A DNA stretch of 64,000 bases, from the NCBI GenBank assembly GCA_015055945.1, contig SVHH01000001.1, positions 62,001 through 126,000 on the forward strand. Reading direction: 5' to 3'. The translations under genes were made by a program, and so were the position numbers. This document shows positions 14,171-54,860 of this stretch, in pieces. The notes beneath the pieces are model-generated. The model had not been told where the DNA came from. It made no database searches and saw only the letters and a list, made by a program, of their open reading frames with translations. Numbering within the stretch: position 1 is the first letter of the stretch; every line of letters begins with the position of its first letter. The stretch is from Clostridiales bacterium. GTDB lineage: Bacteria > Bacillota > Clostridia > Christensenellales > Borkfalkiaceae.

Positions 14171-15307
14171 TTAAGACACGATTGCACTATTATTACCTTT
14201 CCAGTTAGAGTGCCAATAATTGGGCGTTTTATCGTGTTTTAGAACTATATTTTGAAGTTTTTCGCATCCGTCAAATACGTTTGCGCCCATCCTTATAACA
14301 CTTTTTGCAATAGTAACGTCGGTTAGGTTTTCACAGTTACTGAACGCACCTTTACCTATTGAAGTAATATTGTTAGAAATACTAACTTCAGTAAAATTTC
14401 TACACATAAATGCATAAGGTCCAATGGAAGTTGCACTATTATCAAGGTCGAAAACTTCACAACCAGCGATAATGCTGTTGTTCTGGTTATCGATTAAACA
14501 GCCCTTTTCTACGCGGAAATATCCGTTCCCCACGTGTGAAGTAATTTGTTCAACGCTTTCAAGCATTGAAATCGCTTTGGGGTTTACTATCGAACAATTA
14601 TAATCAATTAAAACTTGTGTTTGACTTAACGAAACAGGTTTTGCAAGGTATATATAAGGGTTTACAATTGAACCAAGATAATAAAAACCGTTGTTTTCAC
14701 TATACTTTAAGTCTTTACATTCATCAATAGATTGTTGATTAATCATTTTACAACGAACGTGAATGTCAATCGTATCAATTAAATACGAATCAACTGAAGC
14801 CATATAAAAATAAGGATTAACTTCGTTCCCTAAATATTTAGCGTTGCCGTACGAATTAAATTTCAAACTGATGCAGTTTAGAAAAGCACTTTCGTCAATT
14901 TCAATAAGCGTTGACGGAATACGCGCTTTTACAATATTTACACAGTTATAAAATGCGCTCTCACCAATAGTTTTAACGCCGTCTGCAATGTTTAATACTT
15001 TAATATGCTTTTCATCTTTAAATGCGTTTTCAGCAATATCGGTTACTGGAAGATTTTTATGTGTTGCTGGGATAAAGAGTTCTTCTAAATTAGTCGCAAA
15101 GTCTTTTCCGCGCACAACGTACCCAGTACCAGACTCATTTAAAGTATACACTAAGCCTTCGGTATAATAATTACACCCACAAAGTGTGCAAACGTAATCT
15201 TTATAAACGTGTGTACAGTCTTTTTTGCAAGCACTCGCAGTAAAAATCGAAAACACTAAAAGTAGATTCAGAAATAATGCTAAAATTTTAACAAAGTTTT
15301 TTTTCAT
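14171..15307 (-). CDS. BspA-type leucine-rich-repeat lipoprotein
   Basis: 378 aa. Lipoprotein signal peptide with lipobox TASAC, so membrane-anchored through Cys27. A small Cys-rich knot follows (CTHVYKDYVCTLCGC), then BspA/LRR_5-type repeats (for example IAENAFKDEKHIKVLNIADGV and ITSIGKGAFSNCENL). These solenoids occur on gut bacteria and protists and are linked to adhesion. The middle third is less regular, with two NPYIYLA/NPYFYMA units. Flanked by its own terminators; no functional partner is visible. Confidence 0.85.
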   Translation of the reverse strand: MKKNFVKILALFLNLLLVFSIFTASACKKDCTHVYKDYVCTLCGCNYYTEGLVYTLNESGTGYVVRGKDFATNLEELFIPATHKNLPVTDIAENAFKDEKHIKVLNIADGVKTIGESAFYNCVNIVKARIPSTLIEIDESAFLNCISLKFNSYGNAKYLGNEVNPYFYMASVDSYLIDTIDIHVRCKMINQQSIDECKDLKYSENNGFYYLGSIVNPYIYLAKPVSLSQTQVLIDYNCSIVNPKAISMLESVEQITSHVGNGYFRVEKGCLIDNQNNSIIAGCEVFDLDNSATSIGPYAFMCRNFTEVSISNNITSIGKGAFSNCENLTDVTIAKSVIRMGANVFDGCEKLQNIVLKHDKTPNYWHSNWKGNNSAIVS

Positions 15308-50883: not shown

Positions 50884-52202
50884 TAAAAGCCTTTAAACAT
50901 GCGGCTGTTTTTCATCTGCTTCATCATCACTTTTGTCTGTTCAAACTGCTTTAATAAGCGGTTTACTTCTTGGATAGAAGTGCCGCTACCCTTTGCTATG
51001 CGGTTCTTTCTAGACGAGTTTATAACTGACGGATTTTCACGCTCATACATCGTCATTGACTGGATAATTGCTTTGGTGCGGAGCATTTTCTTTTCATCGA
51101 TATCCGCTTCGCTAATCTTCATTTTACCCATGCCCATGCCGGGGAGCATGCCGAGAATTTCTTTAATACCGCCCATTTTGTTCATCGTTTCAAATTGAGA
51201 GAGATAATCGTCTAAAGTAAAAGAATTTTCTCTAAACTTTTTCTGCATCTTTTGGGCTTGCTCTTCAGTAACCGCTTCTTGCGCCTTTTCAATGAGTGAC
51301 AAAACGTCCCCCATGCCTAAGATACGGTTTGCCATTCTATCGGGATAGAAAGGCTCTAAGTCGCCAAGTTTTTCACCAACTGAACAAAATTTAATGGGCT
51401 TGCCTGTAACCGCTTTCATTGAAAGGGTTGCACCGCCACGAGTGTCCCCGTCAAGTTTAGTTAAAACTAAGCCGGTAACTTCTAGGCGTTTGTTAAAAGT
51501 GTCCGCCACTTCAACGGCAACTTGACCAGTCATTGAGTCAACAACTAGAAGAATTTCAGAAGGATTAACTTCCGCCTTGATATCTTCAAGTTCTTGCATC
51601 AACTGTTCGTCTATTTGTAATCGACCAGCCGTGTCGATAATCACCGTGTCAAAACCAAAAGATTTAGCGTGCGCTACGCCTTCTTTTGCAATTTTTACTG
51701 GATTTCCTTGACCTTTTTCAAAAACCGTGCAGCCAGCCTTTTCCCCAACCACTTTTAATTGATTGATTGCCGCGGGGCGATAAACGTCACAAGCGACCAA
51801 AAGGGGTTTTCTGCCCTGTTTTTTAAGCATCATACCAAGTTTACCAACGAGCGTTGTTTTACCAGCGCCTTGAAGACCAGCCATCATAATAACCGTAGGC
51901 GGGTTTGATGCAAAGTTAAGTTTTGAACCAGTAGAACCCATCAATGCGATAAGTTCTTCATTAACGATTTTAATAACTTGTTGAGTGGGGTTAAGATTTT
52001 TAATAATCTCTTGCCCAACCGCGCGCTCGCTCACCTTTGAAACGAACTCTTTAACGACAGATATATTTACGTCCGCTTCTAAAAGTGCAATGCGCACTTC
52101 ACGCATAGCCGTTTTAATTTCCAACTCGGTAAGTCTACCGTGCTTTGTAAGTTTGGAAAAGATATGATTTAATTTTTCGGAAAGACCTGAAAAAAGTGCC
52201 AT
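50883..52202 (-). CDS. ffh: Signal recognition particle protein Ffh
   Basis: 439 aa. NG GTPase domain (GLQGAGKTTLVGKLG, DTAGRLQIDE, TKLDGDTRGG) and a C-terminal Met-rich M domain that binds SRP RNA and signal sequences. Acts with FtsY (53964). Its start overlaps the ylxM stop by one base. Confidence 0.98.
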   Translation of the reverse strand: MALFSGLSEKLNHIFSKLTKHGRLTELEIKTAMREVRIALLEADVNISVVKEFVSKVSERAVGQEIIKNLNPTQQVIKIVNEELIALMGSTGSKLNFASNPPTVIMMAGLQGAGKTTLVGKLGMMLKKQGRKPLLVACDVYRPAAINQLKVVGEKAGCTVFEKGQGNPVKIAKEGVAHAKSFGFDTVIIDTAGRLQIDEQLMQELEDIKAEVNPSEILLVVDSMTGQVAVEVADTFNKRLEVTGLVLTKLDGDTRGGATLSMKAVTGKPIKFCSVGEKLGDLEPFYPDRMANRILGMGDVLSLIEKAQEAVTEEQAQKMQKKFRENSFTLDDYLSQFETMNKMGGIKEILGMLPGMGMGKMKISEADIDEKKMLRTKAIIQSMTMYERENPSVINSSRKNRIAKGSGTSIQEVNRLLKQFEQTKVMMKQMKNSRMFKGF

Positions 52203-52501
52203 TATCTCAACAAAATCTCCATTAACGCTTTGCGGGTATTTTCATCATTAGTAGTGTTGATAACTTCTTTAAGCAACTTGTTTTTCTCTCTTAACGAGAG
52301 CACCTTTTCATATTCGTCAAGTTTACTTTTAACCTTTTTAACCGCGTTATATACGCTTTGCCTTGAGCCACCTTCTTGCTCTGCAATTTCCGACAACGAT
52401 AAGTCGAATAAATAATGCGATGAGAAAAGTTCCCTTTGCTTTTCGGTTAAAAGTTCTTTATAAATTTCAAAAAGTTCGATATACTCTAAATCTTTTTCCA
52501 T
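52202..52501 (-). CDS. YlxM-family (UPF0122) HTH protein
   Basis: 99 aa. Sigma-70 region-4-like helix-turn-helix (LSEIAEQEGGSRQSVYNAVKKVKSKLDEYE). YlxM is a modulator of the SRP pathway in streptococci and is encoded directly upstream of ffh in most Firmicutes. No Shine-Dalgarno: the ATG follows a hairpin and a T-rich stretch. Confidence 0.93.
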   Translation of the reverse strand: MEKDLEYIELFEIYKELLTEKQRELFSSHYLFDLSLSEIAEQEGGSRQSVYNAVKKVKSKLDEYEKVLSLREKNKLLKEVINTTNDENTRKALMEILLR

Positions 52502-52513
52502 AATAAAAAATGA

Positions 52514-52543
52514 AAGGTGTAAACCTTTTTTGCTTTACACCTT
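52514..52543 (-). promoter_or_regulatory. Hairpin in the ylxM-ffh leader
   Basis: Perfect 10-bp stem aaggtgtaaa / tttacacctt, followed on the minus strand by tcattttttatt and the ATG. Transcription should begin at about 52540, so the leader is essentially this hairpin plus a U-rich tail. It resembles an attenuator or a 5' stabilising stem. Confidence 0.6.
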
Positions 52544-52546
52544 GAT

Positions 52547-52575
52547 ATTATATAGATTTTTCCACGCTATGTCAA
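52547..52575 (-). promoter_or_regulatory. Consensus promoter of the ylxM-ffh operon
   Basis: Minus strand TTGACA (52570-52575), 17-bp spacer, TATAAT (52547-52552), both perfect. Confidence 0.88.
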
Positions 52576-52608: not shown

Positions 52609-53082
52609 TTAAATTTTATAATTCGAATATTTTGTTAAACAAATATAATCATCTTCATATCGATAGTTTTCTTCACCGATATCAAAAATAAAATATTCAT
52701 ACCAACCATCCCCATATACACTGCGCCATCTTTTTTCCACTGAGACACTTTGTTTTTCATTATCAAAAACAATTTTTACAGCTTCGCCAACATTTTTCCA
52801 TCTTCCTGTATATTTTGAATTTTTCCACCAAACGTCTGCATTTCCGTCATTTTTTAGTATAAATTTAGCATATTTTTCAGTAAATACTTTTCCATCATAA
52901 GAGTCACCCCAATAATAATCTTTCTCATTAAAAAATCTAGCTTTATAATATTTAAATTCATAACATACAGCCGTTTCTTGTTCTGGTTCTGTCGGTGGAG
53001 TGGAATTATCACTGCCAGATGAACACGCAGTAAAAGTAAACATTGTTAATATTGCCAAAATAATAGCGAGAAGTTTTTTCAT
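52609..53082 (-). CDS. Small lipoprotein of unknown function (accessory cassette)
   Basis: 157 aa from ATG 53082; the longer frame opens with a GTG. Lipobox FTACSS, then a Pro/Glu linker and about 120 residues rich in aromatic residues (WKNSKYTGRWKNVG, GDGWYEYFIFD), probably a small beta-barrel. No family recognised. Visibly more AT-rich than the neighbouring housekeeping genes. The -35 of its promoter lies in the centre of a 27-bp palindrome, so the divergent XRE gene probably represses it. Confidence 0.75.
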   Translation of the reverse strand: MKKLLAIILAILTMFTFTACSSGSDNSTPPTEPEQETAVCYEFKYYKARFFNEKDYYWGDSYDGKVFTEKYAKFILKNDGNADVWWKNSKYTGRWKNVGEAVKIVFDNEKQSVSVEKRWRSVYGDGWYEYFIFDIGEENYRYEDDYICLTKYSNYKI

Positions 53083-53131
53083 GTGGTACACCTAATTCCT
53101 AAATATATAATGTATTATGTTATTTAAAACA

Positions 53132-53160
53132 ATTATACAAGCAATAAATAGTCTTGTCAA
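53132..53160 (-). promoter_or_regulatory. Consensus promoter of the cassette lipoprotein
   Basis: Minus strand TTGACA (53155-53160), 17-bp spacer, TATAAT (53132-53137). The -35 is embedded in the palindrome 53144-53170. Confidence 0.85.
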
Positions 53161-53170
53161 GACTATTTAT
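53144..53170. promoter_or_regulatory. 27-bp perfect palindrome, probable operator of the XRE regulator
   Basis: Two 13-bp arms (ataaatagtcttg and its exact complement) around one central base. A further half-site aagactat recurs at 53188-53195, overlapping the XRE gene -10, 29 bp from the same octamer in the palindrome. Placement fits repression of both divergent genes. Confidence 0.75.
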
Positions 53171-53192
53171 GTAAAAATATTCCAAATAAGAC

Positions 53193-53198
53193 TATACT
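53193..53198 (+). promoter_or_regulatory. -10 element of the XRE gene
   Basis: TATACT ends 8 nt before the ATG at 53207 and no Shine-Dalgarno is visible, which suggests a leaderless transcript. The -35 is poor (atgtaa at 53169-53174). Confidence 0.5.
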
Positions 53199-53206
53199 CT
53201 AATTGT

Positions 53207-53416
53207 ATGGCGTGTTTAATTAAAGAGCGCATAAGAGAATTGCGCATTGAAAACAAACTTAATCAAAGCGAACTTGCAAAAAAGTGCAACGTAAAACAAT
53301 CGTGTGTTAGTAAATGGGAGCGCGGCGAAACTTTACCTGACGCAGAAATGATTATTACCCTTGCTGAAATATTTAATGTTAGCGCAGATTATCTATTAGG
53401 TATAAATGATTGTTAA
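53207..53416 (+). CDS. XRE-family transcriptional regulator (small)
   Basis: 69 aa from ATG 53207; the upstream part of the ORF-track frame is promoter DNA. A single Cro/C1-type helix-turn-helix: IRELRIENKLNQSELAKKCNVKQSCVSKWERGETLP, ending ADYLLG. It is the only plus-strand gene in a long minus-strand operon region, divergent from the lipoprotein whose promoter carries the palindrome. Autoregulation plus repression of the neighbour is inferred. Confidence 0.88.
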   Translation: MACLIKERIRELRIENKLNQSELAKKCNVKQSCVSKWERGETLPDAEMIITLAEIFNVSADYLLGINDC

Positions 53417-53425
53417 TTTAAAACT

Positions 53426-53457
53426 AAAAAGCGACTGAGTTTTTTCAGTCGCTTTTA
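53426..53457. terminator. Bidirectional terminator
   Basis: Stem aaaagcgactga / cagtcgctttt with A/T runs, between the XRE gene and the second lipoprotein. Confidence 0.85.
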
Positions 53458-53469
53458 TTTTTTTATAAA

Positions 53470-53832
53470 TTAATCAACTTTTTGCAAAACCATACCGCTA
53501 TCGCCATTATTATAGGTAAGCGTGTCGCCGTCTAAGGTATATTCTTGGGGTTCATCACCTATGGTAATGGTAACGGTTTTACCCTTTTGTTCCCAAGTAC
53601 CTTCTTTAACAACGCTACCGAGGATGGTTTTGGTTGTCATCTTTGCAACGCCGTCTTTTTCGAGTTCAAGTTTGATGTAATCTTCATCCAACTTTTCACC
53701 AACTTCAACGGTAATGCCAGCCTCTGTCATCGACTTAATTTTATAAGTGCCTGCAGCAGTGTTACAAGCGGCTAAACCAACGCAGCAAACGCAAAGAATA
53801 GACGCAACTAAGATTGTTAATAATTTTTTCAT
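53470..53832 (-). CDS. Small lipocalin-like lipoprotein of unknown function
   Basis: 120 aa. Lipobox GLAACN, then about 95 residues of short strands: GTYKIKSMTEAGITVEVG, GTWEQKGKTVTITIGDEPQEYTLDGDTLTY. This pattern is common in small clostridial lipoproteins with a lipocalin-like half-barrel. Own consensus promoter and ggagg. The gene and the XRE/lipoprotein pair separate ftsY from ylxM. Confidence 0.8.
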   Translation of the reverse strand: MKKLLTILVASILCVCCVGLAACNTAAGTYKIKSMTEAGITVEVGEKLDEDYIKLELEKDGVAKMTTKTILGSVVKEGTWEQKGKTVTITIGDEPQEYTLDGDTLTYNNGDSGMVLQKVD

Positions 53833-53899: not shown

Positions 53900-53916
53900 T
53901 ACCGATTTTTAAAAAA

Positions 53917-53949
53917 TTTAAAGGCAACAAACAAATTTTTGCCTTTAAT
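53917..53949 (-). terminator. Terminator of the asnS-ftsY operon
   Basis: Stem aaaggcaa / ttgccttt with an A/T-rich loop and T-run on the minus strand, directly after ftsY. Confidence 0.7.
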
Positions 53950-53963
53950 TTTTATCAATTTAA

Positions 53964-54860
53964 TTAAAACATACTGTCTACAAAGTCTTGAGCGTTAAAA
54001 TCTTCAATATCGTCGATTTTTTCACCAGTTCCAACAAAGCATACGGGAACTTCTAATTCATACGATAATGAAATAATAAAGCCGCCTTTTGCCGTGCCGT
54101 CAAGTTTGGTTAAAATTATACCGTCAATACCAACCGCTTCGTTAAACACTTCCACTTGGTTATAAGCGTTTTGACCAGTAGTTGCATCAAGTGCTATAAG
54201 TTTATAATAGTTTGCCGCGGGATATTCACGCTTAACAACCCTATCCATCTTTTTTAATTCTTCCATAAGGTTGGCCTTTACGTGAAGTCTACCCGCTGTA
54301 TCAATTATTAAAACGTCGGTATTTTTAGCCTTTGCAGACTCGATTGCATCGAATACAACTGCTGATGCATCAGCGCCTTCAGAATGCTTTATAATGCGAA
54401 CTTTTGCCCTTTCCGCCCAAACAGAAAGTTGATCGGCAGCAGCCGCACGGAAGGTGTCCGCCGCTGCGATAGTTACGCTTTTGCCTTCTTTTACGAATTT
54501 GTTGGCAAGTTTACCGATAGTGGTTGTTTTACCCACACCGTTTACCCCTACGACCATAATAACAGCGGGCGAAGTAATTTGTAGCCCGTCAGCATAATCA
54601 ATCGTTTCAAACAATTCTTTTTTAAGAAGTTCAATTACGTACTCTTTATCTTTGCACTTTTCTTTAATGGCAACGTCGCGAATTTCATCAACGATTTCCA
54701 TAGTGGTTTTAACTGAAACGTCGGCAGAAATCAAAATATCTTCCAACTCTTCATAAAAATCTTCACCAATTTTATCTTTTGCGAAAAGTTCGTTTAATTT
54801 TTTTGAAATTCCGTCTCTAGTTTTAGTCAAAACGGCTTTTAATTTACTGAATAATCCCAT
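53964..54860 (-). CDS. ftsY: SRP receptor GTPase FtsY
   Basis: 298 aa, only the NG domain without the acidic A domain of E. coli, as usual in Firmicutes. GVNGVGKTTTIGKLA, DTAGRLHVK, TKLDGTAKGG. It docks SRP-ribosome complexes at the membrane. Thirty-nine nt after smc. Confidence 0.97.
   Translation of the reverse strand: MGLFSKLKAVLTKTRDGISKKLNELFAKDKIGEDFYEELEDILISADVSVKTTMEIVDEIRDVAIKEKCKDKEYVIELLKKELFETIDYADGLQITSPAVIMVVGVNGVGKTTTIGKLANKFVKEGKSVTIAAADTFRAAAADQLSVWAERAKVRIIKHSEGADASAVVFDAIESAKAKNTDVLIIDTAGRLHVKANLMEELKKMDRVVKREYPAANYYKLIALDATTGQNAYNQVEVFNEAVGIDGIILTKLDGTAKGGFIISLSYELEVPVCFVGTGEKIDDIEDFNAQDFVDSMF

Follow-up and report, generated by a model that had tools for sequence, protein, structure and literature searches.

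A small XRE regulator and its operator between ftsY and ylxM form a putative portable repressor switch with swapped cargo

The neighbourhood of ftsY and ylxM is normally continuous, and in the Clostridiales bacterium analysed here it is interrupted by a small XRE regulator and two small lipoprotein genes. This raises the question of what kind of unit sits at this junction, which gene it controls and whether it belongs to the place where it is found. Throughout, the window is the whole 64,000-nucleotide stretch of DNA that was analysed. The gene order, smc-ftsY-lipo2-(xre)-lipo1-ylxM-ffh, confirmed the arrangement described in the first-pass annotation, with xre as the sole gene on the plus strand and the rest on the minus strand. 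The features of the locus are the following.

52202-52501, minus strand: ylxM, with ffh next
52547-52575, minus strand: own consensus promoter of ylxM-ffh, beyond the insertion site as seen from ftsY, with a conserved leader hairpin after it
52609-53082, minus strand: lipo1, predicted lipoprotein of 157 aa with an FTAC lipobox, most likely a divergent lipocalin-like beta protein
53132-53160, minus strand: lipo1 promoter, TTGACA-17-TATAAT, 12/12 consensus positions, its -35 within O2
53144-53170: O2, perfect 27-bp palindrome (predicted operator), its centre at the -35 of the lipo1 promoter
53178-53194: O1, degenerate 17-bp predicted operator, overlapping the first bases of the xre -10, its centre 29 bp from that of O2
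53193-53198, plus strand: xre -10, TATACT, 8 nt before the ATG
53207-53416, plus strand: xre, 69 aa, stand-alone Cro/CI-type HTH regulator (HTH_3) with no effector domain
53427-53456: bidirectional intrinsic terminator, separating the convergent xre and lipo2
53470-53832, minus strand: lipo2, Lipocalin_4 lipoprotein of 120 aa with its own consensus promoter
53908-53958, minus strand: terminator-like inverted repeat behind ftsY, read from the sequence
53964-54860, minus strand: ftsY

The palindrome ATAAATAGTCTTG-T-CAAGACTATTTAT is exact and, as first described, covers the -35 of one lipoprotein, its centre being the TTGACA of the lipo1 promoter. Palindromes with 13-bp arms and a spacer of 0-3 occur twice in the window and in none of ten shuffles, and the core of this one has a single exact copy across the 1.45-Mb genome. 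The second site, initially taken for a half-site at the regulator's -10, does overlap that -10, but it is in fact a full-length degenerate operator, O1 (TAGTCTTATTTGGAATA), with one good and one degenerate arm, and it is conserved across species. Control by the palindrome, first described for the cassette as a whole, would not extend to lipo2: since lipo2 has a separate promoter without the palindrome, and the terminator lies between lipo2 and xre, only lipo1 is predicted to be under O2.

The product of xre matches Pfam HTH_3 (1.5e-17, 63.8 bits against a cut-off of 23), and its closest solved relatives are P22 c2 and an Xre regulator of ICEBs1; no sensor domain or inducer was identified for it. 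In relatives, the ATG lies 6-9 nt past the -10, and this short spacing predicts an xre mRNA that is probably leaderless or nearly so. Orthologues at 66-78% identity are present in 6 of the 44 genus genomes (this one counted), with one copy in each.

Both lipoproteins are predicted from a lipobox cysteine after a hydrophobic stretch, FTAC in lipo1 and LAAC in lipo2. The lipo2 protein, encoded at 40% GC, matches Lipocalin_4 (PF13648) with 27.2 bits against a cut-off of 22.4. lipo1 had been described as AT-rich and unlike known families; it is indeed AT-rich (29.5% GC versus 39% in the window) and had no Pfam match above cut-off, Lipocalin_4 remaining unmatched up to E 1, but a remote relation to the lipo2 family emerged, as its mature part matches the profile of that family with an E of 6e-4, a score reached by 0 of 200 shuffles. 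Among 100 relatives no lipo1 orthologue was found, and other matches were mostly to the signal-peptide region. Fold prediction, which had been proposed for this protein, was only partly informative: the single-sequence model was set aside at a pLDDT of 44, and the model guided by the lipo2 family reached 64 with lipocalin-like proteins as top, though weak, PDB matches, a partly circular result, the alignment having included lipo2 relatives. Given that mature lipo1 still matches the lipo2 family profile, lipo1 is most likely a fast-diverging lipocalin-like protein and a remote relative of lipo2. Neither lipo1 nor lipo2 matched a named sie family in profile searches. One other lipobox protein was found by regex in the window, a predicted lipoprotein of 378 aa at 14171-15307.

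The state of the junction in the genus was counted from gene maps of the 23 genomes in which ftsY and ylxM lie on one contig. The junction is empty in 11 and occupied in 12, and the 11 relatives with an empty junction bear out the view of an accessory cassette in a normally continuous neighbourhood. The present XRE is the occupant in four carriers (G000, G016, G019, G025), and in two more, G034 and G021, it comes directly after ftsY on contigs that end before ylxM. The other occupants are a different XRE (G026, G027), a RelBE-like pair (G001), a lipoprotein of 1270 aa (G028), a polytopic membrane protein of 425 aa that is glycosyltransferase-like by inspection (G031) and a short remnant (G035). 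G012 and G014 carry another recurrent insert (L050, L051), in which a large, lipoprotein-like surface protein accompanies two XREs, one small and one with membrane helices. The neighbouring smc-ftsY junction is uninterrupted in 30 of 30 genomes. By coordinates, ftsY and ffh are ~0.4-0.6 kb apart in most order-level outgroups, and for this reason the empty ftsY-ylxM state is probably ancestral. In the genus, ylxM-ffh has its own promoter and conserved leader on the far side of the junction, suggesting that inserts are tolerated there.

That leader has features of its own. A 12-bp hairpin or palindrome, CAAGGTGTAAAGC...GGTTTACACCTTT (window 52499-52552, minus strand), lies right after the ylxM-ffh -10 and upstream of ylxM, which has no obvious ribosome-binding site ahead of its ATG. 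The hairpin covaries in 23 genus members (6 of 12 pairs changed on both sides), and its model also matches other families, three matches lying just upstream of ylxM by coordinates (G060, G037, G044). In an Rfam search of the region, no family reached its gathering score, the leader hairpin included. It could act in the mRNA as a 5' hairpin or in the DNA as an operator of the SRP operon.

Conservation of the operators follows the regulator and not the gene that it faces. The core [TA]AGTCTTGACA[AG]GACT[AT] sits on the -35 of a divergent lipoprotein gene in 6 of 6 genus carriers, and regulator and operator are kept together in all six while the controlled gene changes: the divergent partner of xre is a relative of lipo2 in G016, G019, G021 and G025, and it is lipo1 in G000. 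Among 301 family genomes the operator-promoter pattern is confined to these loci. A natural case of regulator-operator co-variation is provided by the different junction XRE mentioned above (G026, L053:435-800; G027, L056:356-420), which has 37-42% identity and a different palindrome, TTCTTACA-N2-TGTAAGAA, between -35 and -10, a pattern that co-evolution of regulator and operator would predict.

Genome-collection and order-wide searches found this XRE together with its operator at about ten loci in other genera, among other gut Clostridia, in unrelated contexts and with the O2 core TAGTCTTGACAAGACTA kept across species upstream of unrelated genes. In nearly all modules O2 is centred on the -35 TTGACA of the controlled gene and O1 lies over the xre -10; the outside modules G531 and L112 have the arms of O2 and not the TTGACA centre. 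The distance between the O1 and O2 centres is 28-30 bp in nearly all modules, the exception being G025 with 44 bp and an extra site in between, and several modules have a third site (O3) past the cargo -10. Cargo of the outside modules, assigned with Pfam and PADLOC, comprises a lipoprotein that is FxLYD-like by eye with no Pfam hit and adjoins a carboxylase gene (G045), a BspA/LRR_5 lipoprotein (L104), a zinc-ribbon membrane protein (L106), a small membrane protein (G594), a lipoprotein family of ~320 aa common to G639 and G483, an InlB-repeat lipoprotein (G531), a membrane protein (G521) and a small orphan (L112); G366 has no clear cargo. In L108 (100-2385) the cargo is an EcoRI-type methylase with a GmrSD_N-HNH nuclease, called REase_II by PADLOC. 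The expression of restriction-modification (R-M) systems is often restrained by small XRE controllers, and L108 is a type II R-M candidate whose controller is unusual. More distant XREs, mostly below ~55% identity (L115-L120 and those among the L275-L296 matches listed), lack the AGTC-N7-GACT operator and were excluded.

A lipobox is present in 6 of 10 independent cargo families compared with 3 of 57 window genes of at least 100 aa, with a binomial p of ~4e-6 that is rough because the cargo families were hand-counted and the sample is small; the module counts are likewise small and not independent. The original proposal of a self-contained regulator and operator with an envelope output is supported by these observations, with the regulator-operator pair conserved together and outputs that are mostly, and not only, of the envelope.

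The suggestion that the cassette was possibly acquired needs more care, because it occurs on scattered branches of the genus tree, directly follows ftsY in each of its carriers and has neither a mobility gene nor any viral or plasmid relative exceeding 60% identity. It is far from being present in all relatives, its carriers being the six noted above, and neither integrase, transposase nor terminal or flanking repeats were found among the cassette ORFs and repeats. All XRE matches from viruses, phages and plasmids were below 60% identity. Viral origin was also examined through the pattern AGTCTTGACAAGACT-N11-13-TANANT, which matched 14 viral stretches, 0 of 14 with an adjoining XRE, and was rejected. 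On a host tree of the genus built on ffh and ftsY, XRE is patchy, and XRE distance correlates loosely with host distance (Spearman 0.54, p 0.04), the XRE tree being poorly resolved with 69 aa. Within the genus there may thus have been either old presence with losses or repeated insertion. Across genera, the unrelated loci and their differing contexts suggest a block that is portable on an evolutionary time scale. The conserved flanks, ftsY on one side and ylxM-ffh on the other, would offer a reasonable route for exchange by homologous recombination.

Taken together, we consider it probable that the locus is a portable, autoregulated and likely leaderless XRE repressor switch with swapped cargo. 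The XRE protein, a Cro/CI-like dimer by family, would bind O2 on the -35 of the strong divergent promoter and shut off the cargo gene, here lipo1; it would also bind O1, and O3 where present, over its own weak promoter and so limit its own level. Binding and repression are suggested by the position of the sites and their conservation with the regulator, and as there is no sensor domain, one operator lies on the -35 of a strong promoter and another on the -10 of a weak one, the simplest reading is repression of the cargo combined with autorepression. The regulator-operator pair would move or be exchanged as a unit with different cargo, and in the genus it would be placed just after ftsY, at the insert-tolerant junction. 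Full expression of the cargo would require the absence or removal of the regulator, as might occur on arrival in a naive cell. The R-M module suggests that this block can also keep in check genes whose overexpression would be costly or dangerous. We advance with considerable reserve, as an unlikely generalization, that the small XRE with its fixed O1/O2(/O3) block is a generic establishment-control cassette that restrains newly arrived, strongly promoted genes, with a burst on entry and low expression afterwards; if this were true, its cargo would be chiefly surface lipoproteins, and also R-M systems.

The most serious competitor, which we hold to be possible though on balance somewhat unlikely, is ordinary local regulation, in which XRE is ancestral at the junction and controls a single housekeeping lipoprotein, with losses in many lineages and no movement. 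The genus carriers all have a single XRE after ftsY, the distances of XRE and host are loosely correlated as given above and mobility genes were not found, all of which fits such a history; against it stand the patchiness on the host tree, the inconstancy of the lipoprotein among genus members and the same XRE and operator in other genera at unrelated loci with unrelated cargo. These outside modules also bear on a toxin-antitoxin pair in which the small lipoprotein would be the toxin and XRE its antitoxin: a small XRE beside a small gene, and the RelBE-like pair of G001 at the same junction, bring it to mind, but the cargo is unrelated across modules, xre and lipo1 are divergent and do not form a single operon, and XRE lacks a toxin-neutralising domain, making such a pair highly improbable.

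Two further accounts were considered. A remnant of a prophage or ICE immunity region, with XRE as a CI/Cro-type repressor and lipo1 as a superinfection-exclusion lipoprotein, would agree with the closest solved relatives of XRE, with the layout of two or three operator sites and with the phage Ltp lipoproteins of lysogeny modules (PMC3952083). We regard it as improbable, since no integrase or phage gene was found nearby, the operator-promoter matches in viral contigs lack an adjoining XRE, the best viral, phage or plasmid XRE is below 60% identity, Ltp differs from the lipocalin-like cargo, and in TP-J34 ltp and the repressor gene point the same way (PMC3952083) whereas the genes are divergent here. 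Alternatively, XRE may activate the divergent promoter at low level and repress it at high level, as do C proteins of R-M systems. The R-M system in one module, the multiple predicted binding sites and the leaderless regulator mRNA that is common among C proteins (PMC4824078) speak for this; O2, however, occupies a repressor position on the -35 of a near-consensus promoter, the operator AGTC-N7-GACT differs from C boxes, and no C-protein model was among the profile matches of XRE, so that we give dual action little credence.

The repressor switch with swapped cargo is unusual in that the regulator-operator block is kept almost letter for letter with exchanged cargo, which ranges from lipoproteins of several unrelated families to a type II R-M system. 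If this holds, the switch would be a modular unit of natural origin that controls the expression of accessory genes in uncultured gut Clostridia, and its operator could serve as a search handle for envelope and defence cargo hidden from homology.

Repressor-operator switches are well known, and the class to which this one belongs, an XRE repressor with its operator, is already known. The lambda cI repressor mRNA is leaderless, and stand-alone XRE repressors of the Cro/CI type (the P22 c2 DNA-binding domain, the ICEBs1 Xre regulator, Phage_CI_repr/HTH_3) resemble the present one in their HTH fold by sequence, palindromic multi-site operator, divergent promoters and apparent leaderless repressor mRNA; unlike them, the XRE here has no C-terminal cleavage or oligomerisation domain, phage genes, or nearby peptidase or antirepressor partner. 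The RstR family (NF041951) is matched partially (HMM, 61.6 bits against a curated cut-off of 80), and the RS1/CTX-type context is absent here. Temperate-phage lipoproteins of the Ltp/Sie type are likewise small surface lipoproteins beside a CI-like regulator, but lipo1 is of a different protein family, with opposite gene orientation and no prophage. C proteins of type II R-M systems are small DNA-binding regulators with leaderless transcripts (PMC4824078), like XRE also in their autoregulatory operator, and one XRE module drives R-M genes, which are linked to XRE in L108 only and not at this locus. Their C boxes are GACT-tat-AGTC or CTAAG-n5-CTTAG (PMC4824078), whereas the operator here is AGTC-N7-GACT, centred on the -35 of a strong promoter, and most XRE-module cargo is not R-M; because of this different geometry, membership of the C-protein family is not claimed. 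Full-text literature combining the key terms gave no description of the XRE-operator module. What is new is that the same switch recurs elsewhere, combined with different cargo that in one case is an R-M system.
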